Positions 394 through 57,404 of a stretch of DNA of 58,096 nucleotides are shown here, in pieces (position 1 is the first letter of the stretch; every line of letters begins with the position of its first letter). A model generated the notes under the pieces. It was not told the origin of the DNA. It saw only the letters and a list, made by a program, of their open reading frames with translations, and ran no database searches. This DNA comes from Methanobrevibacter olleyae (GTDB lineage Archaea; Methanobacteriota; Methanobacteria; Methanobacteriales; Methanobacteriaceae), in the NCBI GenBank assembly GCA_015063035.1, contig SUTG01000008.1:1-58096 (forward strand), in the 5' to 3' direction. A program made the position numbers and the translations under genes.

Positions 394-417
394 TATTTGA
401 TTCAGGAGGAGCTTATA

Positions 418-810
418 ATGGATGAGGAAATAATCTTTAAGCCAATTGGATACATCAAATCCCCTTTTGAAGACGTCAATAATATGCCTAAATCCACTAG
501 AGAATCCATGGATGTGGAAGCTGAAATGGTCATCAATGAGGAATACCTGGAAAGCATGTCAAGCATGGAAGTCGGTGAGGAGTATATGGTTTTATTCCAT
601 TTCCATAAGTCAGAAGGATTCAAGCAAAGGGTTCCTTTTATGGGAAATGGCCCTATTAAAGGATTGTTTTCAACTCATGCTCCAAACAGGCCAAATCCTA
701 TTGGAGTCTCTACAATAAAGATAACCGAAATTGAAGGAAATGTAATTAAGTTCAATGGAGTTGACATGCTGAATGGAACTCCTGTCCTTGACATAAAGGA
801 TATTTTATAA
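418..810 (+). CDS. trmO: tRNA (t6A37) N6-methyltransferase TrmO/TsaA-like
   Basis: A 130-aa protein of the TsaA-like (UPF0066) fold. It carries the diagnostic STHAPNRPNPIGVS stretch in the middle and the following D(M)LNGTPVLDIK segment, both typical of TrmO, which uses S-adenosylmethionine to methylate threonylcarbamoyladenosine at tRNA position 37. The frame is open further upstream, but the ATG at 418 is preceded by AGGAGG at 403-409 with normal spacing, so this start was chosen. The protein is short for the family and lacks the C-terminal extension of bacterial TrmO, which is usual in archaea. Activity is inferred from the family. Confidence 0.85.
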   Translation: MDEEIIFKPIGYIKSPFEDVNNMPKSTRESMDVEAEMVINEEYLESMSSMEVGEEYMVLFHFHKSEGFKQRVPFMGNGPIKGLFSTHAPNRPNPIGVSTIKITEIEGNVIKFNGVDMLNGTPVLDIKDIL

Positions 811-854
811 GTTTCCGCTTTTTAATTACTTTAATTTTTAGATTTTAATTCATT

Positions 855-1113
855 ATTTTTCTTATTTCTTATTCTTTTCTTATTTTAGTAATCGTTTTTT
901 ATTTGTTGTTATTTTTCTTATTTCTTATTCTTTTCTTATTTTAGTAATCGTTTTTTATTTGTTGTTATTTTTCTTATTTCTTATTCTTTTCTTATTTTAG
1001 TAATCGTTTTTTTATTTGTTGTTATTTTTCTTATTTCTTATTCTTTTCTTATTTTAGTAATCGTTTTTTTATTTGTTGTTATTTTTCTTATTTCTTATTC
1101 TTTTCTTATTTTA
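855..1113. repeat. 56-57 bp tandem repeat, about 4.5 copies
   Basis: T-rich direct repeats start at 855, 911, 967, 1024 and 1081; each copy contains the core TTTTAGTAATCG, and the last is partial. Copies three and four have one extra T in a T run, which accounts for the 57 bp period. The array follows trmO and may act as a long U-rich terminator. The rest of the gap (1114-1547) is AT-rich with no gene seen. Confidence 0.9.
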
Positions 1114-1547
1114 CTAATTATTTCTTATTCTTTTTTCGATATTGGATAATTTTATTTATTTTCATTTGAAAATAGGGATAGATATTAGCTATTTTGCCTA
1201 TTTAGGTACAAACCTTTATATAGTAAATAAAATATATATTATATTAATATTAATTAGGTTTAGCTATATTATTATTGATTATTTTCAAATCTTATTGGAA
1301 TTTAATAATTTTTAATAATTTTTAAGATAATTTTGGTTTTTTAATTTTATAGTTGATCTTATTAATTTATTAATTTTTAGAAAAATTCTAATTAATATGA
1401 GATTATTGTGTCTAAAACATATTGTCTTTAATTTTTTCTAAAAAATTCCTTAACTACTGGTATAATAATTTAAAATAATTATTCTTAATGGATATTTGTT
1501 TTAAAAAGAGGCTTAATTATCCTATTTGGATTAGAAAAATAGTTAAG

Positions 1548-1558
1548 TTTATATATTA
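1548..1558 (+). promoter_or_regulatory. TATA box for the LSm gene
   Basis: TTTATATATTA lies about 40 bases before the LSm start codon. A TATA box here would place transcription start near 1580, just before the AGGTGAT ribosome binding site at 1582-1588. Assigned by position and composition only. Confidence 0.5.
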
Positions 1559-1583
1559 TACAAACATATTTAATATAGTATAG

Positions 1584-1824
<241 letters not shown>

Positions 1825-1826
<2 letters not shown>

Positions 1827-1862
1827 AAACTCAGTTTCTTATTTTTTCTATTAGTTTTTCTT
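1825..1862 (+). terminator. Likely LSm terminator
   Basis: The stop codon runs into the near-palindrome AGAAACTCAGTTTCT, followed by T-rich DNA with runs of six and five T. Archaeal termination relies on such T runs; the short palindrome may be coincidental. Confidence 0.5.
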
Positions 1863-1958
1863 GTTCTACTCAATAAAGATTATTGAATTAATTATCTATT
1901 AGTTAAATTAGTTCCTCTAATGAATTAATTTAATTAATTATCTATTTTATGTTCTTAT

Positions 1959-1968
1959 TCTATATAAG
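1959..1968 (+). promoter_or_regulatory. Possible TATA box for rpl37e
   Basis: TCTATATAAG lies about 80 bases before the rpl37e start. If used, it gives a leader of roughly 50-60 bases that includes the GGAGGAGA ribosome binding site at 2034-2041. Confidence 0.4.
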
Positions 1969-2046
1969 ACTGTTTTATAGACTATTTCTAGTCTGACAAG
2001 TGAAATTTATTATTATTGTTTATGATTGATTTAGGAGGAGATAGAA

Positions 2047-2232
2047 GTGAAAGGAACTCCATCAATGGGTAAAAAAAATAAAAAGACCCATATTAGATGT
2101 AGAAGATGTGGTAAAAACTCATACCACGTACGTAAAAAAGTTTGTGCTTCTTGCGGATTCGGTAAATCCAGTAAAATAAGAAGATACAGTTGGCAAAACA
2201 AAAAACCTACCACTCGTCAAAGATTAGTATAG
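2047..2232 (+). CDS. rpl37e: 50S ribosomal protein L37e
   Basis: A 61-aa basic zinc-finger ribosomal protein. It begins [15 protein letters not shown] and has the four zinc ligands C18, C21, C33 and C36 in C-x2-C-x11-C-x2-C spacing, as in archaeal and eukaryotic L37e. The GTG start at 2047 gives the exact family N-terminus and follows a strong GGAGGAGA site; the ATG six codons in would cut the conserved N-terminus. L37e binds 23S rRNA in the large subunit. Confidence 0.96.
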
Positions 2233-16555: not shown

Positions 16556-17845
16556 ATGAGAAGGAAAATAAAGACTCTATTTATGACAGTGGGAACTGGA
16601 GTTAATCCAAATTCAGATGAGGAGAGCTATCAAAGATTGGCTAAAGGATTATACAATTCAATTAACAAGATCTCTCCAGATTATATAGTGTTCTTTGCCT
16701 CAGAAATATCAAAGACTACAATAGATTATGTTAAGGAACTCTTTGAGGCAGATGATGATGTATTCATTGAAGGTGAAGACTATGAAATTTCAATTTTATA
16801 TGATATAGACAGTTTCAATGACTGCTTCGAAACATTTGAAAGAATGATATGGAAATTCAACATATTATCTAAAGACAAGCATGAAATAATCATGGATTAC
16901 ACTTCCGGAACCAAAACAATGTCTGCTGCAATGGCTTGCTGCGGAATGTTCTATTCAGTGGACCTTATCAGTGTTACTGGAGACAGGAAGAATGGAACAG
17001 TATCCCTTGGTACAGAAACAATAAAGTATCAAAACCTCTATAAGGTCTATGACAAGTTTTCACTAATGAGAGTCAGGAATTACTTCAATGCAAACAGATT
17101 TTACACTGCAAGTGAAATATTGGAAAAAATAGTTGATGAAAGCATTCACACAGAAGATCTTATGAATCTTTCCAATGCATATTATGCATGGGACAATATG
17201 GACTTTGATGTCGCTTACGATTTTCTAACTAAAGTGGAGTTGAATCTCTTAGAGCTTAAGGAAATCAAGGATGATATCAAGATTAACCTAAAGGCCTTAG
17301 GCGCTATAGTTAGGTCTCAACACGAGAATCTCAAGAACTGCTATATTCTTGCAAGCTTGATTAATAATTCAATAAGAAGGGCAGAGGAATATAAGTATGA
17401 TGATGCCATCGCTCGATTATATAGGGCATTTGAATTGATTGCACAAATTAGGCTTGCTTCTTATGGATTAACAAGTTCAGATATTGATGTTAATATACTT
17501 TTAGAGAAAAAAGTCAGCCAGGAATTCATTGATGCACTTGAAAAAACAAGGGATGAAGGCAAAATAAAAATAGGATTGATTAAGGATTATGAGCTATTGG
17601 CAGAATTGGATGATGATTTGGGAAAGTACTTTGCAGAAAATAGGCATAGCATCAACAATATAACCATTAAAAGAAATAATTCAATCTTGGCTCATGGACT
17701 TGAATCATTGGACAAGGAGGATTTCGATCAATTTGAAGAGCTTGTTGAAAACCTTGCCCGCAAGTTGGATAAGGATATGGGCAAGTTCCTCAAAGAGACC
17801 AAATTCGCTAAATTTGATTTGAAAGTAAAGATGAATGAGATTTAG
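16556..17845 (+). CDS. CARF-HEPN protein, TIGR02710/Csm6-like
   Basis: A 429-aa protein of the CRISPR-associated CARF type. The N-terminal Rossmann-like domain begins LFMTVGTGVNP and contains MDYTSGTKTMSAAM (about 113-126), the ligand-binding loop of CARF proteins; family members sense cyclic oligoadenylate from type III CRISPR complexes. The C-terminal half has YDDAIARLYRAFELIAQIRL and then R373-x6-H380 in RNNSILAH, a HEPN RNase motif. It would therefore act as a ligand-switched RNase. No cas gene or CRISPR array lies in this window, so it is an orphan here. The gene begins at the first ATG. Its 3' end is duplicated as a 41-bp repeat. Confidence 0.82.
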   Translation: MRRKIKTLFMTVGTGVNPNSDEESYQRLAKGLYNSINKISPDYIVFFASEISKTTIDYVKELFEADDDVFIEGEDYEISILYDIDSFNDCFETFERMIWKFNILSKDKHEIIMDYTSGTKTMSAAMACCGMFYSVDLISVTGDRKNGTVSLGTETIKYQNLYKVYDKFSLMRVRNYFNANRFYTASEILEKIVDESIHTEDLMNLSNAYYAWDNMDFDVAYDFLTKVELNLLELKEIKDDIKINLKALGAIVRSQHENLKNCYILASLINNSIRRAEEYKYDDAIARLYRAFELIAQIRLASYGLTSSDIDVNILLEKKVSQEFIDALEKTRDEGKIKIGLIKDYELLAELDDDLGKYFAENRHSINNITIKRNNSILAHGLESLDKEDFDQFEELVENLARKLDKDMGKFLKETKFAKFDLKVKMNEI

Positions 17846-21724: not shown

Positions 21725-22315
21725 TCAGTCAGCTTCTATTTTTATTTTATCTTCTTGTATTGAGGTGATTTTATTTGTCTCCTTAGTTTTTTGATTAATT
21801 TTTTTCTCATCAATCTTGAAAACTAAGGGCTCTTCTTCCAAAGCTCCAGGGTCTTTTTCTATTAGTTCCTTTACTTTATTTGAAATTGCTGAGCCATCTT
21901 CATTATCTATCAAATCTATTAATTGAACCTGGTTTTGGAATCTTTCTATGGAATCCATTGGTAAATTTTCCACATAAGGTATTGCACCAGTTGCACCAAT
22001 AATTCTCTTTTTTTCTTCATCACAGCTATTTTCATAAAGCGCCTGTATACTTTGACCTGTAATATGCCCCTGCACTTCAGCACCACATAATATCAGGAAT
22101 CTGATGTTAGGGTTTGAAATTATATTTGCCACAACTTTTTCAATTCCTAAATTTTCAGTTTTGCAAGGACCTGCAATAGCAGCTCCTGCGGCTGAAGGGA
22201 TTTCTTCGATATGGGAGGCTAATGTTGCCACTGCTACAGGACTTTCAGGATCACCTACGATATAGTCTCCAGTGATCACTGGCCAATTTTCTGCTGTAGG
22301 TTTTTTTTCTACCAT
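21725..22315 (-). CDS. mtrA: MtrA homologue without membrane anchor
   Basis: A 196-aa homologue of tetrahydromethanopterin S-methyltransferase subunit A, the corrinoid-carrying subunit of the sodium-pumping Mtr complex. The start [22 protein letters not shown] and the corrinoid loop [12 protein letters not shown] are clear; the cobalt ligand position is H84, as known for this family. The usual C-terminal membrane helix is absent: the protein ends in a hydrophilic lysine/glutamate-rich tail (residues about 170-196). It is also outside any mtrEDCBAFGH cluster. It is therefore probably a soluble paralogue, such as those annotated mtrA2 in related genomes, that shuttles methyl groups elsewhere. 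GGAGG precedes the ATG at 22315. Confidence 0.9.
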
Positions 22316-35440: not shown

Positions 35441-36121
35441 TTAATCGAGATAAACTTTATCTTCGATTTTTAATTCTCCACCGCAAATAGGGCATATCTC
35501 ATCTTCAGTAAGGTATGAGATCTTCTTTTGGCAATTTGGGCAAATGTCCCTTTTGAATTTCTCCTCATTCAATGTATAGAAATAACTTCCATAGATAATG
35601 CTGATGATTGTAATGCTGTTTATGTATGTGCTTATATAATATTCCAGATAGATGATTATCTTATTAAGCTTTGATTTCAGATTCTCAAGCCTTCCATTGG
35701 AATCAATCAATTCCTCAAGCAATTCCTTAAAGTATTTTTCATTTTCCAGAATGAAGTCATAAACATCGATTTCCACCTTATTGCTAATGATGAAATTCAA
35801 TTCAACTGCCTTTTTGAATTTTTCCAAGATGAACTCGTGTTGTCTAGTTAGGCTATTTTTAAGTATGTTTATTGATGCGCATGCACCATATCTTGATTCA
35901 AATGGGTTGATTTCATAGATGATTACCCTTTTATTGCAGTTTCCACAATAGGTTTCTATTATATTCCCCACTAAAGGTGAAGATTCACTCTCTTCCATTG
36001 CCAACAAAACCCTATTTTCTATATTGATTTCATTGGTTTTTGGATCTAAATAAAAAAATTGGTCATAGTTGACGAATGTTGAATCGCATTTCTTGCATTT
36101 ATATTTAGTGTAATGGGTCAT
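35441..36121 (-). CDS. Zinc-ribbon protein, family copy A
   Basis: A 226-aa protein with an N-terminal zinc site split between CKKC (9-12) and CGNC (about 59-62), a helical middle and a C-terminal zinc ribbon CPNC...CPICGG. No enzyme domain is recognised. It is a full-length paralogue of the gene at 39499-40170: both have LAMEES-x-SS-L and FLLENE/FILENE segments, and the C-terminal ribbons are nearly identical. GGTGATTTT precedes the ATG. The acidic two-TM gene (36536-36946) lies upstream on the same strand, as in copy B. It may bind a nucleic acid or act as an adaptor; the function is unknown. Confidence 0.8.
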   Translation of the reverse strand: MTHYTKYKCKKCDSTFVNYDQFFYLDPKTNEINIENRVLLAMEESESSPLVGNIIETYCGNCNKRVIIYEINPFESRYGACASINILKNSLTRQHEFILEKFKKAVELNFIISNKVEIDVYDFILENEKYFKELLEELIDSNGRLENLKSKLNKIIIYLEYYISTYINSITIISIIYGSYFYTLNEEKFKRDICPNCQKKISYLTEDEICPICGGELKIEDKVYLD

Positions 36122-39498: not shown

Positions 39499-40170
39499 TT
39501 AATCAATGTAAATTACCTTGTCTATAAATAGCCTATTGCCGCATAATGGACATATCTCATTCTCATCTATAAAGCTAATTTCCTTTAGGCAATTGGGACA
39601 TGTGTTCTTTCTTATTTTCACATCATTTAGGCTTATGAAGAAATCATTGTTCCTGATGCTTATTGCATATTTTGTTTTATCATAGGTCTTGATTAGATGA
39701 TTCAAGTATTCCAGCTTGATATAGTTCTTGTCTTCCAAGAGCTCATAGTCAGTTGTGAAATTATTGATCAAGTCCTTGAAATACCTTTCATTTTCCAATA
39801 GGAAATTATATATTTCCAGAACAAATCTCCTTTTTTTAATCAGCTTATGCAATTTCAATGATTTTTTGTATTTTTCCTCTATGAAATGCCTCCTTTCGAT
39901 TAAGCTGTCCTTAAGCAGATCCACTGCATCCTGACAGCTGTATAAGCTGTTCTCCAAATCGATTTCAAAAACCTGTATATCCTTATTGCAGTTTGTGCAG
40001 AATGTCTCCTTAATGATTCCTGTAAGTGATGAGGATTTGCTTTCTTCCATGGCTAAAGTGGGACTGCTTGCCACTTTAATTTCATTCTCATAGTTCAGAT
40101 AAAAAAACAGGTTCCGACTTATCAGTTTGGACTTGCACTTTTCGCATCTGTATATGATATGGTGTGTCAT
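39499..40170 (-). CDS. Zinc-ribbon protein, family copy B
   Basis: A 223-aa paralogue of 35441-36121. N-terminal CEKC and CTNC pairs, a helical core and a C-terminal ribbon with CPNC...CPLCG match copy A. The ATG at 40170 aligns with copy A's start (MTHHIIYRC against MTHYTKYKC) and is preferred to an ATG three codons earlier. It is the first gene of the three-gene unit read right to left. Confidence 0.8.
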   Translation of the reverse strand: MTHHIIYRCEKCKSKLISRNLFFYLNYENEIKVASSPTLAMEESKSSSLTGIIKETFCTNCNKDIQVFEIDLENSLYSCQDAVDLLKDSLIERRHFIEEKYKKSLKLHKLIKKRRFVLEIYNFLLENERYFKDLINNFTTDYELLEDKNYIKLEYLNHLIKTYDKTKYAISIRNNDFFISLNDVKIRKNTCPNCLKEISFIDENEICPLCGNRLFIDKVIYID

Positions 40171-40639
40171 TTGCATCACAAACCCTTTTTTAAGTTTTTA
40201 ATTCGTTTAGCTCATTTTTCCACAGGTCCTATCGATTGATTATATTCCTTTTTAGATATTTAAAATTGCTTTTTGAATCATGTTTAATTTTTCCATTTAT
40301 TTTGGATTAAAAATTAAACAAAAGTAGTAAAATAAGGTGTTTTTTTAAATTTATGAAATTTAAAAAATAAAAATTTATAAATCCTTTTTTTGAATAAACA
40401 TTTTTCAAAATTCAGGATAATTTTTAGACAAAATTAGATTTTTTTAAATAGGGGGTTTTGATTAAAATGTTATTTGTAGTTTTAAGCCAATTTTAACCAA
40501 TTTCATTACAGATTTTAATTTATTAATTATGTAATGTGTTTTTGATACTTTTTGCATTGTATCTTTTTTGCATTATGTAATGTGTTTTTGATACTTTTAA
40601 ATATCTATAAATATAAAAAATTATGGCGATTAGAAAAAC
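40171..40639. other. 469-bp non-coding gap
   Basis: AT-rich. TTATGTAATGTGTTTTTGAT occurs twice, at about 40526 and 40572 (46-bp offset), just before the remnant at 40640. No gene or strong hairpin is seen. Confidence 0.5.
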
Positions 40640-41704: not shown

Positions 41705-43702
41705 TTAACATCCTCCCATACTATGTAAATATATTTCACGATATTTTTCTTCTATTTCATTTTTTGCCTCAATTTTTAAGATATTATCTAAATTCTTATC
41801 TGCTTCTTCAAAATTACCAATATCAATAAGTATCATGCCTTTAAATGTTAATAATGTAATATCATCTTCATTATTTTCTAAATTTTTATTAATAAAATTA
41901 TTGAAAGATATTAAAAGTTTAGAATATTCTTTTTTAGGTAATAAATAGTTTAATATAAAAAAGTTATTTACTAAATAAAATTCATCTATTATTAATTGAT
42001 TGTATATTTCTATACCTTCGTGGAATTTTCTATAAATAAAATATAAATTTGCTAATAGATATTTCAAGCGATTATCAGAATATTTTTTAATCAATTCTTT
42101 TAATTTTTCTTCCGTGTTCATTCCACATTTCATTTCAACAAATGTTAAATCAAGATGTGTTTCAATATTATCTTCATCATATTTTAATGACTCTGTAAAG
42201 AAAGCTATAGATTTTTGGTAGTTATTCTCATTTAAATATAATTTTCCCCAAATATAATAAAATCCTGAAACCTCTTTTTCATTTCCAATAAAATCATTAT
42301 TCTTAATTTTTTCTTCAAAGTTTTTAAATAATTCTTTGGCTTCTTTAAAGTTATTATTTTCTAAATAGGATAAAGTTAAGTTATTTGCTATCATTAAACA
42401 TTTCTGCTTCAGAGAAAGTGCTTTTTTAAGATAAATTATAGATTTCATTGGTTCCCCCATGATTCTAAATTCATTAGCTAAGTTTATATAAGCTTGCAAG
42501 TAATCAAAGGAATCTATTGATAAATCAATAGATAATTTATAATATTCTACTGCTTTTTCATGGTCTTCTTTTATTGTATAAATATAACCCAAATTATAAT
42601 ATAATTCAGGAATTAAATAATCTTTATTTTCTAATTTTTTTAAGATATTTTTTGCTTCTTCTATTTTTTCATTATTTAATAAGCTAACAGCTAAATTAAA
42701 TTGAATTATAAAATTATTTGGATCTTCTTCAATTGCTTTTCTATATTCTGCTTCTGCTTCTGTATTAAATCCAAAATGAAGATTTTTTTCAGCATATTCT
42801 CCAAGAACACTTTTATCTTGTGAAATAGTAGGTTTGTATGGCTTTTTATCAGATTTCTTTGAAAATAAATTTATTAAATCTTTTTTTATTTCTGTAAAAT
42901 TTTCATATCTATCATTTGAATCTTTTTCTAAACATTTTGAAATTATTGGCCATAAATCTGAATTTAGTTTTTTTGGTTTTTTAGTCTTATGTAAAATTTC
43001 ATAATCTTCAAAATATTCAGCATAAAAAGGTAAGTCTCCTTTATTTGTAATTTGATAAAATATTATTCCAAAACTATAAATGTCTGATTGTATAGAGTAC
43101 TCACTATCGAAACATTCAGGAGCAGAATATGCTTCTGTTCCATAGAATCTATAATATTCCTCTTCACTTTTAGATATAACGTTAAATGTTTTGTCTAAAA
43201 AATCAGCTAATCCAAAATCACTAATTTTTAAAATATTATCATTATTAATTAATATGTTGTCTGGTTTAAGATCTCTATGTGCTTTGATACCATGTGAATG
43301 AGCATATTCCATACCATAAGCAAATTGTATTCCCCAATCAATAACAGTTAATTCATCAAGATCATCATTCAAATAATCTGTTAAACTTTGTTTTCCATTT
43401 TCTGGACATATAGCTTCTAACATTAAAAAATGCCTGTAATCTAGATTCATAAAATCATAAGCAGCTACGATATTGGGGTGTTGATTTAAATCAATCCAGT
43501 TCCACGCTTCTTGTTCGAATAATTTTATGATTTCTTCTTCATTGTCGTTTCCGATATATTTGTCATGAAAAGTTTTCAAGGCATATGTTATGTCATATCT
43601 AATATCTTTGCAAATAAAAACAGTACCAAAAGCTCCACTAGATTTTTTTATTACTTCGGAATGTAATCCAATTATATCTCCAATTTCAATCTCTTTAATC
43701 AT
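41705..43702 (-). CDS. Ser/Thr protein kinase with TPR repeats
   Basis: A 665-aa soluble protein. The kinase domain (about 1-285) has the glycine loop SSGAFGTV (21-28), the ATP lysine K43 in ALKTF, the catalytic loop HRDLKPDN (142-149), DFG at 162-164 and an APE-type segment (YSAPECF), so it looks active. From about 300 to 650 it is a TPR array (for example YYNLGYIYTIKEDHEKAVEYY). Eukaryote-like kinases with TPRs occur in bacteria and sporadically in archaea and may phosphorylate or sense proteins. The start overlaps the end of the upstream gene in ATGATTAA, so the two are translationally coupled. A decayed module lies upstream on this strand. Confidence 0.9.
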   Translation of the reverse strand: MIKEIEIGDIIGLHSEVIKKSSGAFGTVFICKDIRYDITYALKTFHDKYIGNDNEEEIIKLFEQEAWNWIDLNQHPNIVAAYDFMNLDYRHFLMLEAICPENGKQSLTDYLNDDLDELTVIDWGIQFAYGMEYAHSHGIKAHRDLKPDNILINNDNILKISDFGLADFLDKTFNVISKSEEEYYRFYGTEAYSAPECFDSEYSIQSDIYSFGIIFYQITNKGDLPFYAEYFEDYEILHKTKKPKKLNSDLWPIISKCLEKDSNDRYENFTEIKKDLINLFSKKSDKKPYKPTISQDKSVLGEYAEKNLHFGFNTEAEAEYRKAIEEDPNNFIIQFNLAVSLLNNEKIEEAKNILKKLENKDYLIPELYYNLGYIYTIKEDHEKAVEYYKLSIDLSIDSFDYLQAYINLANEFRIMGEPMKSIIYLKKALSLKQKCLMIANNLTLSYLENNNFKEAKELFKNFEEKIKNNDFIGNEKEVSGFYYIWGKLYLNENNYQKSIAFFTESLKYDEDNIETHLDLTFVEMKCGMNTEEKLKELIKKYSDNRLKYLLANLYFIYRKFHEGIEIYNQLIIDEFYLVNNFFILNYLLPKKEYSKLLISFNNFINKNLENNEDDITLLTFKGMILIDIGNFEEADKNLDNILKIEAKNEIEEKYREIYLHSMGGC

Positions 43703-44273
43703 AAATTACCTCGAATTTATATGTTTTTATTTTGTTAATTTTCTCATATTTGCTTGGTTTATATTTCATGTAAATTTTAAAATAATGTCTGGTAAATGAT
43801 TTATAAATACTTCTAGCTCTTCGAATATTTGCCAAACAAATAGAACAATTTTCTTCTAGTTCTTCGTGCTGTTTAAAAAAGTTTAATGATTCTTGTAGTG
43901 TTAAAATAGCTTGATTTATTTTATTTAAATTTTTATTAATTTCTTTAAAAGATCTAATATTTTTTTCATAAATGATTATTTGAACTTTTGATTTATTCAT
44001 TATGCTAAGATATTTTGCTTGTTTGTCCTTAGTATTTTTTATGACTTTATCATAGAGTTTTAAAGATTTTTTATAATTCTCTTCTTCATTTTCATAATCA
44101 GCAAGTTTGGAAAAACAATTTGCTTCTTCTAACATAGCAACATATTGATTAATAGGAGTTTCATTATTATTTTCTATTCTTTGATAATTTTTACTAATTT
44201 CATTACAGTAGTAAATAGATTTTTTTAAATATTTGACTACATTTTTATCGATCCAGTACTCATTTTCAATCAT
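43695..44273 (-). CDS. Helical protein coupled to the kinase, 5'-eroded
   Basis: 192 codons of a lysine-rich helical protein resembling a TPR solenoid (YENEEENYKKSLKLYDKVIKN). The ATG at 44273 has no ribosome binding site. In frame upstream, about 58 more codons with the same character (for example EILEEVIDTINKDSELYLLF and CDLLSIAYQK) run to near 44450, where stops occur and no start codon is seen. The gene therefore appears to have lost its 5' end. The end overlaps the kinase start by eight bases. It may still be made from an internal start. Confidence 0.55.
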   Translation of the reverse strand: MIENEYWIDKNVVKYLKKSIYYCNEISKNYQRIENNNETPINQYVAMLEEANCFSKLADYENEEENYKKSLKLYDKVIKNTKDKQAKYLSIMNKSKVQIIIYEKNIRSFKEINKNLNKINQAILTLQESLNFFKQHEELEENCSICLANIRRARSIYKSFTRHYFKIYMKYKPSKYEKINKIKTYKFEVIYD

Positions 44274-44757: not shown

Positions 44758-45510
44758 TCAACTATTTTTAATCCTATACACGGCTTTTGGTTTTAAAAAA
44801 GGAACATATTTTTTATTAATATTGTTAGAGAGTATAGGTGTAATATTATCAGGGGCTTGATGGTCATAAATTAATCTCCATTCTTCTTCATATCCCCAAT
44901 CTTTAGATTTCTTTGAGAAAACTCCCCAAATTAATCTGTTTTTCACAAAACCTCCTGCTTGAATTTTCTCAATTACAGTATCATTATTAGTATTATTTAC
45001 ATAATAAATTGGGATACATTGGTCTCTAAAGATATCATTTTCTTTTAAATCGTATGGTATGCATTCATTCATGATTATCTCCATAATGAGCCCACATAGG
45101 ATTTATATCCTTTCTTTCAGAAAAACATATTACTTTAAATTTTTTTTTTTTATTGTTCCCATTTTTCTATTGATTGTTTCTTTGCATGTATTTTTATTTG
45201 ATTTTCAATTTCTTCTTTTTTGTCTATAGTTAATTTTAAATCTTCGTCATAGATTATTTTAATATTATGATTGTCCAGAGTAATCAATAAGTCTCATTCA
45301 AAAGGTCATTTAAATCTCCAATATTTCGTAAATACATTATTTATCACACAATAAACTTTTAGCATATTTTACTTTAGTGTATTGGTAAAGATGTTGGTGC
45401 ATATGTTTATTTTTATATTTTAAATATTCTTCTATTTCAGTTTCCGTACTATCTTTTTTATAAAAATTTTCGAAAAAATTTTCAATTCATGTTTCATCTA
45501 TATTTGCCAT
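44758..45510 (-). pseudogene. DUF2971 protein gene, broken
   Basis: The right end reads ATG GCA AAT ATA GAT GAA ACA then TGA. In other frames the family continues: LRNIGDLNDLLNE, then KVICFSERKDINPMWAHYGD (the DUF2971 core), then DWGYEEEWRLIYDH in the 108-codon ORF that ends at 44758. At least two frameshifts are evident, one at a run of twelve A/T at about 45141-45152 and one after AHYGDNHE near 45066-45072. DUF2971 proteins occur in defence contexts, but their role is not known. This copy cannot be functional as read. Confidence 0.8.
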
Positions 45511-45681: not shown

Positions 45682-48591
45682 TTACATTAATTCATTCAAA
45701 TCTATGTCTTCAAGTAGATCTTCCTCTCTTCTTTGATAGCATCTATATTTTGCTTTTTTCATTCCATATTTATCTGTTTCAAAGCCTATGAAAATATATA
45801 ATCTCCAATCATGTTTATTTTCATCTACAGCTTTAAATTTTATTAAGTTCTCATTTAATTTAGTGAATTTATTTTCTATAAGGTCATGCAAATATAATGA
45901 TTCGGGTTCTAGAATTTCTTCATTAATAACAGTCGAATATATAGGCATGGAATAAGGACCATTTAAAAAAATTATTTCATGTTCTTTAGTTTTCATATCT
46001 ACTCTTCCAGTAGTGTAATATAATCTAAATTTTTCATAACATGAATTCAGATGATTGAATATTTCTAGTTTTGGAGTATTAAGTTCATTTAGCAAGGTCT
46101 CGGCTTCATAAGCATTTGAAATGCCTCCATGGAATTGTTCGTTTCTTTCATTCTTTAAATTAGTATAATTGTTTCTTATATTTTTGTCCATCAGATTCAT
46201 ATAAAACTCTTTGTTTATTTCTGTTCTGAATTCTTTTTTATAAATTCCTGTTAAAATGCCGTGGAAGTGATCCCATGAGCCAAAACTTAAATTTAGTCTT
46301 TTAACATATTTCTCAGCATTGTTCCTTTTATCATAAGCATGTTCCCATATTTTAGTTTTATTTTTTTCATAAATTTCATCTGGAATTCCACTAATTAATA
46401 CATAGGAGTTAAATGCAACTGTAAATTCAAACAATCTTAATAAATTATTAGCTTTTTCAACTTTTTCAAAACCTCCACTTGTGGCTAACAAATAAGTTAT
46501 TGCTAAAGGCCATATCAAACCACTATGTGCATATTCCCAATTATTTGGAATTGAAAGCTCTTGTGTTTCTTCATCAAATTCTTCTTTTCCAAAAAATTCT
46601 TCAACTGCATTTAAATTCCCTTCATAATTAAAGAAATTTTTGTTAATTGTTGTTTTTAATTGTTTCATTCCATCAAATAATTCATCACTACGGTTCATAG
46701 CTTCCACTATTTTGTCTTGCTCTTCTTTAGGGGGGATAGGCACCCTTATATTATATATATCTTCATTTAATTTTTCATGTCCTCTAAGATGATAATAAAA
46801 TTCATTTCTCCCTAATTCTGAATTTAAAAAGTAGTATAAATATTGTACTGATACTTTTTCAGAAATTATTTTATTGATACAGTAATGAGATATGTCTCCA
46901 ATTTCTGAGCCAAAAAATACTATTTGATCTGCATATTCTATATCATCTACAATATACAAAATTTTTTCTTCAGATTTAAGCTTAGATTCTATCATGTCAT
47001 AATCTGTGACTTCCTCAACTAAACTGCCAAGTTTTACAATAGGATAATCTAAATTTTTTGTAATTCTTTTTTTATCTTCAATATATCCTATTTCAAAATA
47101 TTTTTTTTGAGATTTCATTTTAACATCATACATCTCATCATTAAAATTAAAATCTAATATCCTATGGCGCCAGTCATACTTATTTTTACCCATATAATTT
47201 TCAATATTAAATATTTTACTATTATCACTATCAATAAATTCAGAAAATGATCTTAAAGAACTTTCATATATTTCATTATTTTTAACTATGTTTCTAAAAT
47301 CTTCTAAGCTATGTTTTTTTGAAGTTACATCATAATTAAGATTTTTATCAACACTCAAAAATTTATTTTTTTGTTTTTGGGATTTATTGTAATTAAGCGT
47401 AGTTACTAATCCAAGTTTAAAGACATCCTCTTCTTCTTCAAAAGGAGAGGATGTTATTGTATTTTCAAAAGGAATGAGAATTAAGGATTCTAATAAATCT
47501 TCTTTCAACCAGTTATCATAAAGGCCAATAAAATCAAATTGACTAAGGTACATTAATCTTGAAGATATTTGGAAATTATAACTGGAAATATTGTATTCTT
47601 TATCAATCAGATCTTGCACTGAGAAATTAGATTGAATAATAAAATCAAATTGATTTCCTTCATTAGAAAGATCATAATAACTTAAAGGCAGTATTTCTTC
47701 TTTATCAAAACTGTAAATATAATATATTGACTCAACAGGATTAATAATATCTAAAAGATCGAATAATAAATTCATACGTTTGCTAGGAGTAATTATATAT
47801 AAATGAGGGTGACATTCCGGATTTTGACTTCTCATATACTCTACGCATGAAAATATAAAAGGAGTTTCAGGAAGAATATGCAAAATTGTTGCATTCTGTT
47901 TAATTTCAGTGCCATCAAAAAGAACAGTGACTAAAAAATCTCTTAAATCTGGATAATTAATATATTTCTCATCTAATCCTAACATATTCTCAATATGATT
48001 CAATACAAAATTATATAAATCCTCTTTATTTTTTACTATATCATTTATATTCTCTATAGATTCTATAGGAGCACCTTTGTTTAAGTTACTTATTATTTTA
48101 AAAAATACTTGACGAAAAATCTCTTTACGTTCTTCACTACCAAAAATTAAATCAATTACAGGTAGATTAAATCCTCTTAAGTATTCTTCATATTCTTGCA
48201 TTAGTTCACTTTCAAAATCCATATAGTCATAATATGTCTCACGGGAATTTTTCATTAGATAATCTCCAAAGTCTATACTCCTTTCATAATCATTATAAAA
48301 TTGATTTTCTGATTCAAACTTTTCTTTCAAAATATACCAATCAGCATTAGTAATATCTTTTTTATATATTAGATCATCTAAAGTATATTTTGAAATATTG
48401 AAAAAATCTAATTCCTCTCCATTAGGGAAAATTGCTTTTTCAAAAACCCAATCTCCAAAATTTTTATCATTTTTATGTTTTTCATACTCTTCAAGAACTT
48501 CCTTTTTTGAAAATAAAGTAGCTTTATCTAAAAGTTGCAATACAAGAAAAGCGAAATCACAAAGTTCGTCCCAACTAACTATATCTCCCAT
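45682..48591 (-). CDS. Dead N6-MTase / HsdS-half / HEPN fusion
   Basis: A 969-aa protein with three parts. Residues about 130-400 resemble a type I N6-methyltransferase (helical start, HILPETPFIFSCVEYMR as motif I strand region, then FDFIIQSNFS at 315-324 where an active enzyme has FD-x-I-x-x-NPPF), so it appears catalytically dead. Residues about 515-665 match an HsdS half: IVKLGSLVEEVTD, then VQYLYYFLNSELGRNEF, then VPIPPKEEQDKIVEAM. After about 680 comes a helical domain containing R816-NEQF-H821, an R-x4-H HEPN ribonuclease motif. I infer a guard-type protein that may recognise DNA through the HsdS part and act through HEPN. The start follows AGGTTTAAAA weakly. It stands alone on this strand. 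Confidence 0.7.
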   Translation of the reverse strand: MGDIVSWDELCDFAFLVLQLLDKATLFSKKEVLEEYEKHKNDKNFGDWVFEKAIFPNGEELDFFNISKYTLDDLIYKKDITNADWYILKEKFESENQFYNDYERSIDFGDYLMKNSRETYYDYMDFESELMQEYEEYLRGFNLPVIDLIFGSEERKEIFRQVFFKIISNLNKGAPIESIENINDIVKNKEDLYNFVLNHIENMLGLDEKYINYPDLRDFLVTVLFDGTEIKQNATILHILPETPFIFSCVEYMRSQNPECHPHLYIITPSKRMNLLFDLLDIINPVESIYYIYSFDKEEILPLSYYDLSNEGNQFDFIIQSNFSVQDLIDKEYNISSYNFQISSRLMYLSQFDFIGLYDNWLKEDLLESLILIPFENTITSSPFEEEEDVFKLGLVTTLNYNKSQKQKNKFLSVDKNLNYDVTSKKHSLEDFRNIVKNNEIYESSLRSFSEFIDSDNSKIFNIENYMGKNKYDWRHRILDFNFNDEMYDVKMKSQKKYFEIGYIEDKKRITKNLDYPIVKLGSLVEEVTDYDMIESKLKSEEKILYIVDDIEYADQIVFFGSEIGDISHYCINKIISEKVSVQYLYYFLNSELGRNEFYYHLRGHEKLNEDIYNIRVPIPPKEEQDKIVEAMNRSDELFDGMKQLKTTINKNFFNYEGNLNAVEEFFGKEEFDEETQELSIPNNWEYAHSGLIWPLAITYLLATSGGFEKVEKANNLLRLFEFTVAFNSYVLISGIPDEIYEKNKTKIWEHAYDKRNNAEKYVKRLNLSFGSWDHFHGILTGIYKKEFRTEINKEFYMNLMDKNIRNNYTNLKNERNEQFHGGISNAYEAETLLNELNTPKLEIFNHLNSCYEKFRLYYTTGRVDMKTKEHEIIFLNGPYSMPIYSTVINEEILEPESLYLHDLIENKFTKLNENLIKFKAVDENKHDWRLYIFIGFETDKYGMKKAKYRCYQRREEDLLEDIDLNELM

Positions 48592-51843: not shown

Positions 51844-52418
51844 TATTGTTAAAAAAAGGAGCATGAGAAGAAGGTGAATAGGCAGCAAAATCTTTTAGAT
51901 TATGTGGATTAATTAGATCTTAGTGAGGAATTTAGGTTTTATTAAGAAATGATATAAAAGAAGACATAATGGCAGTTTTTGCAATATCTAAAGAGCAAAA
52001 AGGTTTGGTGGAAATTATCAGTTCCTTTCTTCAAAACATGTTCAATAATTAATCATGAAATCTATTAATGCCTAATTTATTATAATTATACTCCTGATAT
52101 CTACATTAACTTATAGATATTTTTGTTAATGGAATAAACGATGATTATTTTGGGATTGTTATTGAAGAATCTGATAGTTTCACTTATAAACTTTTAATAT
52201 TTTAATCGTTATTTGAAGAATTTTATGGGCAATTTTTTTTAAATATTTATCTCAGCGAGATTAACTTTTTAACTAATTTAATTGATTATTGAAATAATGG
52301 AAATTACGTCGTTTAACTTTAATTAAAGTTTCTAATTTTTTAAGATTTATATAAAAATTTAATAATCACTTTTAATATATTCATTAATAATTATAATCTT
52401 TATATAAAGGTGGGTATT
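51844..52418 (+). pseudogene. Eroded coding fragments and helicase leader
   Basis: Between the DUF285 gene and the helicase, short coding-like runs appear in different frames: NRQQNLLDYVD then a stop, LDLSEEFRF, then NDIKEDIMAVFAISKEQKGL to the stop at 52050-52052. Later comes a run reading NGINDDYFGIVIEESDSFTY (about 52124-52185). These suggest one or two decayed genes; no family is recognised. The last 150 bases hold AT-rich promoter DNA and the AAAGGTGGG site of the helicase. Confidence 0.4.
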
Positions 52419-55400
52419 TTGTCTGAGGTAAAGGCTCCAAAAGTATTGGATAATAAAACTAATTTTGTATACACAGAACTTGAGGAAAGCATAAAAAAAG
52501 GTTCTAAGCTTTCTGTAATTTCAGCTCTTTTTTCCATGTATGCATATGATGCATTAAAGAAGGATTTAGATAAAATAGACAATATGAGGTTTATTTATAC
52601 TAAACCAAGCTTTATTCGTGATGATAAAAAGGAATCAAGGGAATACTACATTGATAACAATAGCATTTTTGGAAATGATTATGAGATTAAGCTTAGGAAT
52701 GAAATGACTCAAGGATCAATTTCAAGAGATTTTTCCAAATGGATAAATGATAAACTGGAAATCAAATCATTCAAAACACCTAATGAAGCACAATCACGTA
52801 TGGTTTGTGTTGATAATGGAGATGATTCAAGCATAGCTATCAATGGAAGTGTAGACTTTACAACAACAGGTTTAGGGCTAAGCAAATCAGACAGACAAGA
52901 TATGAATCAATGTGTTTATGGAAATATGTTTACACAACCTTCCTTAATGATGTTTGAAGCCTTATGGGATAATGAAGATCTTTTAGAAGATGTTAAGGAA
53001 GAAGTCTTGGAGCAAATGAAAACTATGCATAAAGAAAATCCCGCTGAATTCATCTATTTTTTATCCCTTTACAATATTTTCAGTGGAAACCTTGATGCCC
53101 TTGATGAAGACAAAATCATTAGAAAAGGAAATACACTTAAGGAATCTCAGATATGGAACAAATTATACAAGTTCCAGAAAGATGCTGTTATGGGAGTAAT
53201 TGACAAAATTGAAAATTATAACGGATGTATCCTTGCTGACAGTGTTGGTTTAGGTAAAACTTTTACAGCACTTGCAGTAATTAAATACTACGAATCACGA
53301 AACGATAGAGTTTTGGTTTTAGTGCCTAAAAAATTAAGGGACAATTGGACTATTTACACTCAAAATGATAAAAGGAATATCTTTGTGGATGACAGGTTTA
53401 ATTATGATGTATTGAATCACACTGATTTAAGTCGTGATGGAGGTAAATCAGGAGATTTGGACTTATCTACAATCAATTGGGGTAATTATGATCTTGTTGT
53501 AATTGATGAATCTCATAACTTCAGGAACAATCCAGCTGTAAAGGATAGAACTACAAGATATGAAAAGTTAATGAGAGACATTATAAAAGGAGGACATAAA
53601 ACCCGTCTTTTAATGCTTTCAGCAACTCCTGTTAACAATAAAATGAATGATATAAAAAATCAGATTGCTTTCATTACAGAAGATGATGACACTGCATTGG
53701 AAGAATTTGGAATAAGCAGTATAGAAAATACATTAAGAAAAGCTCAAGGGGCATTTAACCGTTGGTCAAAGCTTACTGAGGAAGAAAAGGAAAACCAAAA
53801 CTTTATAGATACAATTGATTTGGACTACTTTAAGCTATTGGATTTATTGACTATTGCCCGTTCAAGAAGACACATTGAGAAATATTATAATTTAGAGGAA
53901 GTTGGAGATTTCCCTGAAAGACTTGTACCGCTTAATAAGCATCCAGATATTGATATTAATGGAGAATTTTCTGATTTGGATGAAATTAACAATAAGATTT
54001 CATTATTGACTTTAGGAATCTATTCTCCTTTGCATTATGTTTATCCTAATAAAATGGAAAGTTATGAACAGAAATATGACACATCTGTTGGTTCTGGAGG
54101 AAGCATATTAAGGCAAATTGATAGGGATAAGAATGTAGTTGGATTAATGAGAGTTAATTTGCTCAAACGTTTGGAAAGCTCTATTGATTCATTCAGACTC
54201 ACTCTTTCAAGATTATTGAACACTACAGATGAAACATTGGCAAGAATAGACAAGGGCATTGATTATGTTGATGACTTGGATATTAACTTAATAGATCCTG
54301 AAGAAGAGGAATATGATGATTTGATGTTTGGTAAAAACAGGAAAGTTCTTCTACAGGATATGGATTTGGTCAAATGGAAGCAGGACCTAGAATTGGATAA
54401 GGTTGAATTGGAAGCATTGCTTGAAAAGGCAAATAAGGTCACTCCCGAAAGGGATGCTAAATTAAACACTTTAAAAGACTTGATTAGAGATAAGCAATAT
54501 AATCCAATAAACCCATACAATAAGAAAATAATTATATTTACAGCTTTTGCAGATACTGCAAAATATCTATATAAAAACATTCACAAATGGGCTTTAGATG
54601 AATTTGGACTTCATTCTGCACTTGTAACTGGTGGGGATGAAAACAAAACCACTTTAAAAACAGTCAGAAACAAGAAGGATATTAATGATGTTCTCATTAA
54701 TTTCTCACCAAAATCCAAGGAAAGAGCCATTGTGGATAAGGATGCTAAAGAAGAGATTGACATCCTTATTTGTACTGACTGTATTTCAGAAGGTCAAAAC
54801 CTGCAGGATTGTGATTATCTAATTAACTATGACATTCATTGGAACCCAGTTAGAATCATTCAAAGGTTTGGTAGGATAGACAGGATTGGTTCAGACAATA
54901 AACAGATCCAGCTTGTCAATTTCTGGCCGAATATTGATTTGGATGAATATATCAATCTGGAAGGAAGAGTTAAGAATAGGATGGTAATGGTGGATATTTC
55001 CGCAACTGGTGAAGAGAATATCATTGATAAGAATCAAACAATGAATGACCTTGATTATAGGAGAAAACAATTGGAAGAGCTTCAAGAGAGAGTTCTTGAC
55101 CTTGAAGATATAGATAATACAATATCAATTACAGACCTCACTTTCAATGATTTCAAGATTGAATTGATGGATTATATGGAAGAGCATAGGGAAGAATTGG
55201 AAAAGGCTCCTAGAGGAATTTATTCAATTGTAGATGGCTTTGAAGATGTAGAGCCAGGAGTCATATTCCTGCTTAGACAAGTTAAAGGAACAACAGAAAC
55301 AAAGGAAAGAAACCCATTAAGTCCTCATTATCTTGTTTATATTGGTGAAGATAGTAATGTTAAGTATAATTACATTAACTCTAAAAAGGTTTTGGATTTC

Positions 55401-55652
55401 TATCAAAAGCTTTGTGTAGGTAAAAAAGAAGTATTGACTGATCTTGTAAAGGACTTTAATATGGAAACAAATGATGGAAAAGATATGGAAAAATATTCCT
55501 CATTATTGGTTGAAACTATTGAGAACATATTAGGTAAAAAGCAGGAAGCAGGTGTAAAGAGTTTATTCTCTAAAGGAGGAACTGCTACTGTAAAACAGGA
55601 TATAAATGGATTGGAAGAGTTTGAATTAGTTACTTTCTTGATTATTAAATGA
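52419..55652 (+). CDS. SNF2-type helicase with PLD-like N-terminus
   Basis: A 1077-aa protein. The N-terminal 200 residues resemble a phospholipase D-type nuclease domain; the GSVDFTTTGLG segment (near 143) is present, but the H-x-K of the HKD motif is replaced (SRMVCVDN), so it seems inactive. The SNF2 helicase follows: Walker A DSVGLGKT (about 274-281), DESH (363-366), SAT (401-403) and motif VI QRFGRIDRIG. It is the first gene of an operon with an SseB-like gene, DUF4391 and a Mod methyltransferase. TTG at 52419 is chosen because the GTG at 52410 lies in the ribosome binding site AAAGGTGGG. It probably translocates on DNA in a restriction-type defence. Confidence 0.85.
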   Translation: MSEVKAPKVLDNKTNFVYTELEESIKKGSKLSVISALFSMYAYDALKKDLDKIDNMRFIYTKPSFIRDDKKESREYYIDNNSIFGNDYEIKLRNEMTQGSISRDFSKWINDKLEIKSFKTPNEAQSRMVCVDNGDDSSIAINGSVDFTTTGLGLSKSDRQDMNQCVYGNMFTQPSLMMFEALWDNEDLLEDVKEEVLEQMKTMHKENPAEFIYFLSLYNIFSGNLDALDEDKIIRKGNTLKESQIWNKLYKFQKDAVMGVIDKIENYNGCILADSVGLGKTFTALAVIKYYESRNDRVLVLVPKKLRDNWTIYTQNDKRNIFVDDRFNYDVLNHTDLSRDGGKSGDLDLSTINWGNYDLVVIDESHNFRNNPAVKDRTTRYEKLMRDIIKGGHKTRLLMLSATPVNNKMNDIKNQIAFITEDDDTALEEFGISSIENTLRKAQGAFNRWSKLTEEEKENQNFIDTIDLDYFKLLDLLTIARSRRHIEKYYNLEEVGDFPERLVPLNKHPDIDINGEFSDLDEINNKISLLTLGIYSPLHYVYPNKMESYEQKYDTSVGSGGSILRQIDRDKNVVGLMRVNLLKRLESSIDSFRLTLSRLLNTTDETLARIDKGIDYVDDLDINLIDPEEEEYDDLMFGKNRKVLLQDMDLVKWKQDLELDKVELEALLEKANKVTPERDAKLNTLKDLIRDKQYNPINPYNKKIIIFTAFADTAKYLYKNIHKWALDEFGLHSALVTGGDENKTTLKTVRNKKDINDVLINFSPKSKERAIVDKDAKEEIDILICTDCISEGQNLQDCDYLINYDIHWNPVRIIQRFGRIDRIGSDNKQIQLVNFWPNIDLDEYINLEGRVKNRMVMVDISATGEENIIDKNQTMNDLDYRRKQLEELQERVLDLEDIDNTISITDLTFNDFKIELMDYMEEHREELEKAPRGIYSIVDGFEDVEPGVIFLLRQVKGTTETKERNPLSPHYLVYIGEDSNVKYNYINSKKVLDFYQKLCVGKKEVLTDLVKDFNMETNDGKDMEKYSSLLVETIENILGKKQEAGVKSLFSKGGTATVKQDINGLEEFELVTFLIIK

Positions 55653-55677
55653 CATTACATATGTAAAAGGTGAAAAA

Positions 55678-56616
55678 ATGAATGTTAGTCATATAAGCAA
55701 TAATCATTTAAAAGTTCTTTTAAATGAGCTATTAAGTACAGAAGAATTAAACGAAGATTTACTACTAAATTTAACTAGAGAACTTAGATTTAGCATTTTT
55801 GTTTGCCCTGGTCTCTATATGGAAGACGGTGATTTCTTTAATTATCCTCTTTTAGATTTGGATGATGGAACAAGTATACTTCCAGTATTTACAGATGAAA
55901 ATGAGTATAATAATAGTAATTTAATTACAAATGATTATGAACCAGTCACCTACTTTTTTGAACAATCCTTTGATTTTTTAGAGGATGAAACAATTATGGG
56001 AATAGTAATTAATCCAGATTCAGAGGATTTCTTTGTTTCAAAAGATATTATTAATTTAGTTGCTATGTCTCAATTTGAAGTTTCAAACAGTTTGGATAAT
56101 GATAATTCCTTTGCTTGTGATGGAAATGAACTGAAAGTAATTTTTGATACAGTATCAAATGATAGTTTGATAGAATTTATGCATGATGAATCAAATGCAT
56201 TTGATTATGATGGTCTATTTAATGAATTTGCTAAATCCATGTTGAATACAATTATCATTAATGAAAATTTAGGAGAAAATTATGAGGATATTTATCCTAT
56301 TGAACCTCAAGATATTATTTTAGTCACTGAATTTGATGAAGATGACAGTCCTTGGTTAGTTTTAATGGCAAACAAAGATTCTTTTTATAAAAAATTATCC
56401 TTCCAAGATAACAAATCAATCTATTTTGCTCAATTGGTCAATCCTGATGATTTGGCCATTTTTGCATTGGAAAATGATTATGAAGGAATTATGTTGTATG
56501 ATGAAGAGATATTCATACCTATTCCGAGATCAGTTTTACTTGAAAAAATTGATTCAATTAAGATTTTATGCCATAATCCAAGATTAAATAATTCAATTAA
56601 TTATGCATTGAGGTAA
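55678..56616 (+). CDS. SseB-like domain protein, 312 aa
   Basis: A 312-aa acidic soluble protein. The stretch SILPVFTDENEYNNS followed later by TIMGIVINPDSEDFFVS matches the core of SseB N-terminal domain proteins (pressed-in hydrophobic sheet then GI-x-(I/L)NP). A repeat of the theme near the C-terminus (LAIFALENDYEGIMLYDEE) suggests a second such fold. SseB itself has an obscure role. AAAGGTGAAAAA precedes the ATG; it lies 25 bases after the helicase and two bases ahead of the DUF4391 gene, so it belongs to the operon. No catalytic motif is seen. Confidence 0.65.
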   Translation: MNVSHISNNHLKVLLNELLSTEELNEDLLLNLTRELRFSIFVCPGLYMEDGDFFNYPLLDLDDGTSILPVFTDENEYNNSNLITNDYEPVTYFFEQSFDFLEDETIMGIVINPDSEDFFVSKDIINLVAMSQFEVSNSLDNDNSFACDGNELKVIFDTVSNDSLIEFMHDESNAFDYDGLFNEFAKSMLNTIIINENLGENYEDIYPIEPQDIILVTEFDEDDSPWLVLMANKDSFYKKLSFQDNKSIYFAQLVNPDDLAIFALENDYEGIMLYDEEIFIPIPRSVLLEKIDSIKILCHNPRLNNSINYALR

Positions 56617-56618
56617 AA

Positions 56619-57404
56619 ATGTTAATTGAGGAGTTAATCAAGGTTCCTAATGTAGCTATTATCAACAGTATCCTTCCAAAGCAGGATATCTTTGAAGCTA
56701 CTGGAATGACTAAGTCAGATAAGGATTATTTTGTAAGGTATGTAAAGCAGATTAGATGGCTCTATAAGTTTGATGATGCATCTGTTAGAATAAAGCCTTT
56801 TGTCAATGATGAGAAATCATATTTGGAAGCCGAATTAATTAGCATTAAGTTAAAAAAGGAATTTCAGGAGTATAATCATAATACAGGTAATTATCATAGA
56901 TTTGATGCAAGGCTTGATAGGATTGTAGATATTCTTCTAAGGTTTATTCCTTATCCTATACTCTTATGTGCAGAATTCAATGATGAGATTAAGTTTTATG
57001 TAAGTCATATAAGTGAAAGCAAGTCAGATTATGATAAAATCACTTTAGATGAGCTTATTTATACAGATTGGATTGATGTAAATAATTTGGATGGTTTTGA
57101 TAAAGAATTGATTGAAAAATTGCAGATAGATAATTTGGACAAAACCAATGTATTTACATTTTATGATGATATTGTTACAGCTATTATTCAGTATAATGGA
57201 TCTAAGGAAGTAGGTCAAGAGGTAACTTTAAGTTCAGATGAGATTCAAAAGATAATGGATGATATTAAGATGCTTGAGAGAAAAATAACTGAAATAAGAG
57301 TGGCTATTAGAAGAGAGGATAATTTTAATAAAAAAATGGATTATAATATTCATATTAAAGAATTACAAATGGAAATAAAAACATTACAAGAGGAGTTAAA
57401 ATAA
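56619..57404 (+). CDS. DUF4391 protein, 261 aa
   Basis: A 261-aa protein matching DUF4391 by layout: a start with PKQDIFEATGMTKSDKDYFV, then QIRWLYKF and a middle with RIVDILLRFIPYPILLCAEF. A C-terminal coiled coil follows (about 205-261, KMLERKITEIRVAIRR). The family is found between SNF2-type helicases and type III Mod genes and has no known activity. It starts two bases after the SseB-like gene. A probable T-run terminator (AGTCTTTTTTG) begins at about 57411. Confidence 0.75.
   Translation: MLIEELIKVPNVAIINSILPKQDIFEATGMTKSDKDYFVRYVKQIRWLYKFDDASVRIKPFVNDEKSYLEAELISIKLKKEFQEYNHNTGNYHRFDARLDRIVDILLRFIPYPILLCAEFNDEIKFYVSHISESKSDYDKITLDELIYTDWIDVNNLDGFDKELIEKLQIDNLDKTNVFTFYDDIVTAIIQYNGSKEVGQEVTLSSDEIQKIMDDIKMLERKITEIRVAIRREDNFNKKMDYNIHIKELQMEIKTLQEELK

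Follow-up and report, generated by a model that had tools for sequence, protein, structure and literature searches.

The 969-residue protein and its parts

The gene analysed here lies on the minus strand of the window, that is, the whole 58,096-base contig of a methanogenic archaeon, and encodes a protein of 969 residues in one uninterrupted frame, with an ATG start preceded by GAGGT, a plausible ribosome-binding site. An earlier note on this DNA, made from the sequence alone, had picked out three motifs in the protein, and each is confirmed: FDFIIQSNFS at residues 315-324, VPIPPKEEQ at 617-625 and R816-NEQF-H821 (RNEQFH, 816-821). The layout proposed at that time, a dead methylase followed by an HsdS half and a helical domain with an R-x4-H motif, holds as far as it went; a fourth part, the beta domain at residues 855-961, had gone unreported. 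The gene and its parts are listed below.

45682..48591, minus strand: whole gene, with predicted dead HsdM, half HsdS, HEPN-like domain and beta domain (969 aa, stop codon included in the coordinates)
47947..48591, minus strand: residues 1-215, helical part like the HsdM N-terminus and the most divergent of all; intact HsdM proteins are similar over residues 14-82
47302..47946, minus strand: residues 216-430, degenerate N6-methyltransferase core, from profile matches and the Foldseek match to M.S MTase 7eew
46642..47127, minus strand: residues 489-650, single HsdS half, TRD-like part plus conserved region with VPIPPKEEQ, then coiled coil (PF01420 E=2e-6)
46036..46554, minus strand: residues 680-852, HEPN-like helical domain, from an AlphaFold2 model of the C-terminal module; conserved LFEF (720-723) and LSFGSW (768-773)
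46129..46146, minus strand: R816-N817-E-Q-F-H821, putative active-site motif of the RNase, with R, N and H in all 15 modules
45709..46029, minus strand: residues 855-961, conserved all-beta domain, always after the helical domain; its fold is weakly similar to a portion of ribosomal protein eS4

The methylase part has lost its catalytic motif

Taken alone, the window protein has no methylase match in Pfam. Its ancestry emerges from the family: an alignment of nine relatives (A1), used as a profile against PDB, matches the PacII MTases at 6e-13 and EcoR124II HsdM at 1.6e-12, with HsdS chains at best at 4.5e-7, and residues 14-82 match HsdM ORFs of 661-680 aa. Pfam domains are also recognisable in individual relatives, namely HsdM_N (PF12161) in L002 (E=1.2e-5) and L025 (E=7.8e-16), and N6_Mtase in L025 (5.5e-47), L027 (4.9e-26), the Streptomyces protein P0002 (9e-30) and the Gordonia protein P0003 (1.1e-22); in these last four the methylase part is less decayed than in the window protein. 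The full-length AlphaFold2 model is poor over the methylase part (mean pLDDT 54), and its N-terminal part is of low confidence. A Foldseek search with this model, informative for the methylase and HsdS parts only, returned as its best match the type I M.S methylase 7eew (E=1.1e-4). The family profile and the fold match together bear out an HsdM-type origin of the N-terminal part.

Both signature motifs are degenerate in the window protein. Motif I reads HILPETPFIFSC (238-249), with HILPETPF in place of DPACGTGG, and motif IV reads FDFIIQSNFS in place of NPPY. Loss of the N6-methyltransferase motif, noticed earlier in this one sequence, proves to be consistent among homologues: in the alignment, the catalytic [NDS]PP[YFW] is absent from all seven relatives that keep the region, while NPPY/F is intact in six of six HsdM controls. 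The seven fusion proteins carry QSNF, SDF, SDLP, SDY, SQPS, EIPY and DAPW at this position, those of Gordonia (DAPW) and Streptomyces (EIPY) being nearest to an intact motif. In four more relatives (L021-L024, about 700 aa) nothing is left of the methylase's SAM-binding half, and the protein consists of the methylase tail, the HsdS half and the effector. Because the catalytic motif is gone in the former set and the SAM-binding half in the latter, the methylase is predicted to be dead throughout the fusion family, with activity at best doubtful in Gordonia.

The same genome encodes a second HsdM-like protein (locus L035 on contig 44, ORF 272-2098, minus strand; N6_Mtase E=1.4e-90), which has SQIPF for NPPF and a coiled-coil-like insertion and adjoins a 187-aa half HsdS. 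This pair is possibly another dead methylase with a half HsdS.

A single HsdS half

The HsdS-like block containing VPIPPKEEQ, also proposed in the earlier note, is confirmed by a match of PF01420 to residues 489-650 (28.5 bits against a cut-off of 22). The match forms a single stretch, where an HsdS proper would have two TRDs. The distance from the LG to the PPxxEQ element is 100 residues in the window protein versus, by a rough estimate by eye, about 120-140 in the resident HsdS proteins. Other HsdS genes of the genome lie on contigs 13, 44 and 52, and in a tblastn search the TRD-like part of the window protein matched no resident HsdS. Among the four closest relatives, conservation in the TRD is 0.57, compared with 0.70-0.73 in its flanks.

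The C-terminal module carries an invariant R-N-H motif

The survey of homologues that the earlier note had proposed as a check came out in its favour. R816, N817 and H821 are invariant in 15 of 15 aligned C-terminal modules, whose pairwise identity ranges from 15 to 75% (mean 29%) and in which only 11 of 274 well-filled columns, these three included, are invariant. Because of this invariance, the R-N-H arrangement is no chance pattern. The spacing is R-x4-H in the window protein and R-x5-H in some relatives (RN-x3-H or RN-x4-H). A second conserved acidic residue, E722 in the LFEF of an upstream helix, is present in 14 of the 15 modules and is replaced by D in the Streptomyces protein. An R-x4-6-H motif with a polar residue after the R, together with an acidic residue, is a published hallmark of catalytic HEPN domains (PMC3710099).

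An AlphaFold2 model of the last 299 residues, built from an alignment of 13 sequences (module residue n being protein residue n+670), has a pLDDT of 83 and a pTM of 0.84. It shows a helical bundle (helices at 710-734, 770-786, 803-819 and 827-852) followed by the beta domain, with the motif at the junction between the two long helices 803-819 and 827-852.

Comparisons with established HEPN families were less conclusive. Foldseek with the module model had no solved HEPN among the matches listed, and the module is without a match of weight in Pfam, NCBIfam or PDB, the best HEPN match in Pfam being ApeA at 0.58. Alignment by hhalign to ApeA and Csm6 HEPN profiles was not significant (the Csm6 set was noisy); with ApeA the motif aligned on the motif, at a score no better than that of an HsdM_N control. 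The PADLOC Csx1/Csm6 profile gave weak matches in 3 of 15 modules, the best at 3.6e-4 (matched region not displayed). The A3 profile also matched haemagglutinin HA2 chains weakly, which is apparently coiled-coil noise and was set aside. Of the earlier reading as a HEPN RNase, the conserved motif and the predicted helical bundle thus stand, and a fold match to a solved HEPN does not. Because the motif, the N after the R, the acidic residue on the upstream helix and the predicted bundle coincide, we regard membership of the C-terminal helical domain in the HEPN superfamily as likely rather than proven.

The window also encodes a Csm6-type protein with a HEPN domain (16556-17845; PF09670 E=8e-33), a CRISPR type III-like RNase effector.

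The module is carried by several kinds of protein

A profile search found the module in 14 of 152 genomes of the phylum, with a patchy distribution, on five kinds of carrier: long and short dead-methylase fusions, a RecD-like helicase, an SNF2 helicase and a NERD-UvrD protein. The RecD-like carrier (1562 aa) is covered over residues 2-1275 by PADLOC PDC-S68, and the NERD-UvrD carrier (857 aa, in two genomes of another family) over 15-539 by PADLOC C3a187; these best known models both stop short of the module. The SNF2 carrier (L056, 1360 aa) is of the HmaA/BrxHII type and adjoins a DUF1156 methylase and an ATPase-like gene. A tblastn search of plasmids added three Streptomyces plasmids, with identical proteins, and Gordonia sp. 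JH63, in all of which the module is joined to an N-6 DNA methylase. Forms fused to a dead methylase occur in Methanobacteriaceae as well as on plasmids of Streptomyces and Gordonia. Because the same module occurs on the five carrier kinds and on plasmid N-6 DNA methylases, the last ~300 residues appear to behave as an interchangeable effector on DNA-engaging proteins. A wide bacterial distribution was considered and dropped, since 395 genomes of one bacterial phylum gave a single weak match.

Identity to the window protein is highest in the effector (35-38%) and drops to 25% over the methylase tail and to 20% over the TRD-like part. To judge by these sequences, a conserved effector behind a fast-evolving, catalytically dead front end would suit a sensor. 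In a comparison that covered 139 genomes of the same family, one of the 18 other genomes of the same genus has an N-terminal remnant of only 35 codons, which is consistent with gain and loss of the gene. A viral origin was likewise not adopted, as no relatives were found in a phage collection or, by a pattern search of limited reach, in IMG/VR. One full-length fusion relative of 1089 aa (L026:5370-11585) has a gene for the large subunit of a phage terminase as its neighbour, and this copy may be provirus-borne.

Restriction genes adjoin some relatives

No R-M gene, neither HsdR nor an intact HsdM, lies near the window gene. The Gordonia fusion lies directly after hsdM-hsdS-hsdR; its methylase half is 27% identical to the adjoining hsdM, related yet distinct, and the fusion is split into two ORFs, so that this copy may be decaying. 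In L021 and L022 an HsdR-like gene lies 8 bases upstream of the short fusion (HSDR_N 5e-32 and 1.6e-34), and its product is fused to zinc ribbons and a HELSH metallopeptidase-like end. In L023 and L024, the zinc-ribbon and peptidase-like end alone remains of this upstream protein. The HsdR-like genes (L021:10723-14220 and L022:5598-9098) have an intact-looking nuclease motif (D then ELK), and the L021 protein has NDYD at the expected position of a DEAD-type box.

Downstream of the window fusion lie a 108-aa DUF2971-related fragment (44758-45084; PADLOC PDC-S31 E=7.5e-11), apparently truncated, and beyond it a protein kinase with TPR repeats (665 aa), whose gene overlaps that of a 192-aa helical protein (41705-44273); gaps of 600 and 485 bp flank the fragment. 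These kinase-TPR neighbours were rejected as partners, not being conserved alongside the fusion. On the opposite strand, about 4 kb from the fusion gene, are an SNF2 helicase gene and a DUF4391 gene, part of a terminal group (52410-57404) in which the SNF2 helicase (PADLOC C3a139 HKD+Snf2, E=1.7e-131) is joined by SseB-like and DUF4391 genes, and which is probably a second defence locus, truncated where the contig stops.

Likeness to known systems

The 969-aa fusion is analogous to PrrC, PARIS and DndH, yet a member of none. With PrrC (which accompanies EcoprrI) and RloC it shares a C-terminal HEPN-type RNase motif on a restriction-linked regulator, and a type I R-M enzyme keeps PrrC inactive until a phage anti-restriction peptide frees it (PMC3710099). 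The likeness to PrrC extends to those relatives that follow hsdMSR or an HsdR-like gene, though not to the window gene. In PrrC and RloC, however, the sensor is an SbcC/Rad50-like ABC ATPase at the N-terminus, whereas the window protein has no ATPase match, carries a dead HsdM and a half HsdS instead, and has the beta domain in addition. DndH offers the parallel of a methylase whose SAM and NPP motifs are eroded and which probably still serves a defence protein as its platform on DNA; its effector is a REase-fold DNase, unlike the predicted RNase here, and the fusion is without HerA/FtsK, an SNF2 relic or Dnd genes. The HEPN-fused R-M helicases and DUF499 ATPases (Anantharaman 2013; type-1 BREX-related/Hma) likewise bear a HEPN-type effector on restriction-type proteins, and the HmaA-like helicase of L056 bears the very module described here; in the fusion the carrier is instead a methylase, always dead. 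To HsdM and a half HsdS of type I R-M systems the fusion is alike in sequence and in the predicted fold of M and S, and it differs in lacking NPPY/F, in its degraded motif I, in having one TRD only and in the fused effector.

A probable restriction-derived sensor with a predicted RNase

We consider it probable, on balance, that the 969-aa protein joins a sensor of restriction origin to a suicide RNase. Its dead HsdM and half HsdS would provide a platform for binding, on DNA or inside a type I restriction assembly, and the C-terminal module would stay silent until an invader engages or disturbs this platform. Two modules would then pair into an active HEPN-type RNase and cut cellular RNA (tRNA or mRNA), stopping the infection. 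Candidate triggers are the engagement of unmodified DNA, a type I complex that fails or is disturbed, or a bound anti-restriction protein for which the platform would act as decoy. The RNase activity, the dimerisation, the inhibition at rest, the role in defence and the nature of the trigger are what we infer; what can be read from the sequences are the parts, the apparently dead methylase, the invariant motif, the swapping of the module and the R-M neighbourhoods of some relatives.

Counting in favour are the HsdM/HsdS ancestry, the dead active site, the invariant R-N-H, the helical-plus-beta model, the patchy distribution, the occurrence of the module on further helicases of defence type and the HsdR or hsdMSR genes next to some relatives. 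Counting against are the missing fold and Pfam matches to HEPN, the lack of HsdR or intact HsdM at the window gene, the TRD that is not shared with resident HsdS and the split Gordonia gene. The earlier note had cast the protein as a guard that reads DNA methylation or sequence. A guard role, as we infer it, is strengthened by the Gordonia copy after hsdM-hsdS-hsdR and by the copies behind an HsdR-like gene; reading of methylation did not fare as well, being disfavoured for the methylase pocket because four relatives have no SAM-binding half, and the tblastn result for the TRD-like part also speaks against it.

In one alternative version the half HsdS would retain its recognition of a DNA sequence, and an unmodified site of an invader would turn the RNase on. 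The HsdS domain is retained above cut-off, its TRD-like part evolves fast, and DndH sets a precedent for an inactive methylase with TRDs in a defence protein (PMC10853773); yet the LG-PPxxEQ region is compact, the TRD is not hypervariable in the manner of usual R-M specificity domains, and it is not shared with resident HsdS, and we hold this version to be rather unlikely. Another version makes the dead M and half S an integrated bait for anti-restriction DNA mimics of phages or plasmids (such as Ocr or ArdA), whose grip would release the RNase and lead to suicide. Catalysis would then be dispensable, and it is lost everywhere; the nearest fold match, 7eew, is an M.S methylase crystallised with Ocr, although that match concerns the methylase only; some copies adjoin true R-M genes, although none is found at the window gene; and there are precedents in PARIS, where Ocr triggers tRNA cutting (PMC12409363), and in the peptide that releases PrrC (PMC3710099). 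Against it, four relatives do without the SAM-binding half, and we think it unlikely. Broader still, and in our view likewise unlikely, is the claim that these proteins are immune receptors of a new class: a pseudo-restriction decoy for anti-restriction proteins, made of dead M and half S and in some cases flanked by an HsdR-like protein, would be joined in one polypeptide to a new HEPN-plus-beta RNase module that archaea and actinobacteria share.

Alternatively, the C-terminal domain might be HEPN-like and non-catalytic, binding RNA or protein, with the whole acting as a regulator or scaffold. No fold or profile match ties it to an established RNase HEPN, and the beta domain with its weak eS4 resemblance always follows; however, neither R, N nor H varies between archaea and actinobacteria or among five carrier architectures, while non-catalytic HEPN families typically lose the catalytic motif (PMC3710099), which makes this reading quite improbable. 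Finally, the fusion could form a MADS-like methylation-associated system with the neighbouring kinase and TPR gene, since the best PADLOC match of the HsdS part is mad5 (2e-9) and that of the kinase mad6 (6e-54). The kinase reaches only 102 bits, far under the MAD6 cut-off of 460, and we rejected MADS membership on this ground; the intergenic gaps noted above, the lack of a recognisable kinase beside any other fusion copy and the near restriction of the 192-aa neighbour to the window locus leave the MADS-like reading very improbable.

Relation to the known HEPN repertoire

In the HEPN survey of 2013 (Anantharaman), R-M-linked HEPN domains were fused to nucleases, helicases and ATPases, not to methylases, which was taken as a clue to mechanism; in the open-licence literature we found no later description of a methylase-HEPN fusion. 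The methylase fusion described here, present in archaea and bacteria and apparently dead every time, is an exception that refines the rule: the predicted RNase is wired to the methylase scaffold, not to methylation. If confirmed, the module of about 300 residues would be an effector without a Pfam or NCBIfam model and with only a weak PADLOC match, and the fusion would provide a testable case, within a single protein, of restriction machinery reused as an infection sensor.

Other genes of the window

Elsewhere in the window, two 226-aa zinc-ribbon proteins, likely paralogues, are encoded on the minus strand at 35441-36121 and 39499-40179, and an MtrA gene lies at 21725-22315.
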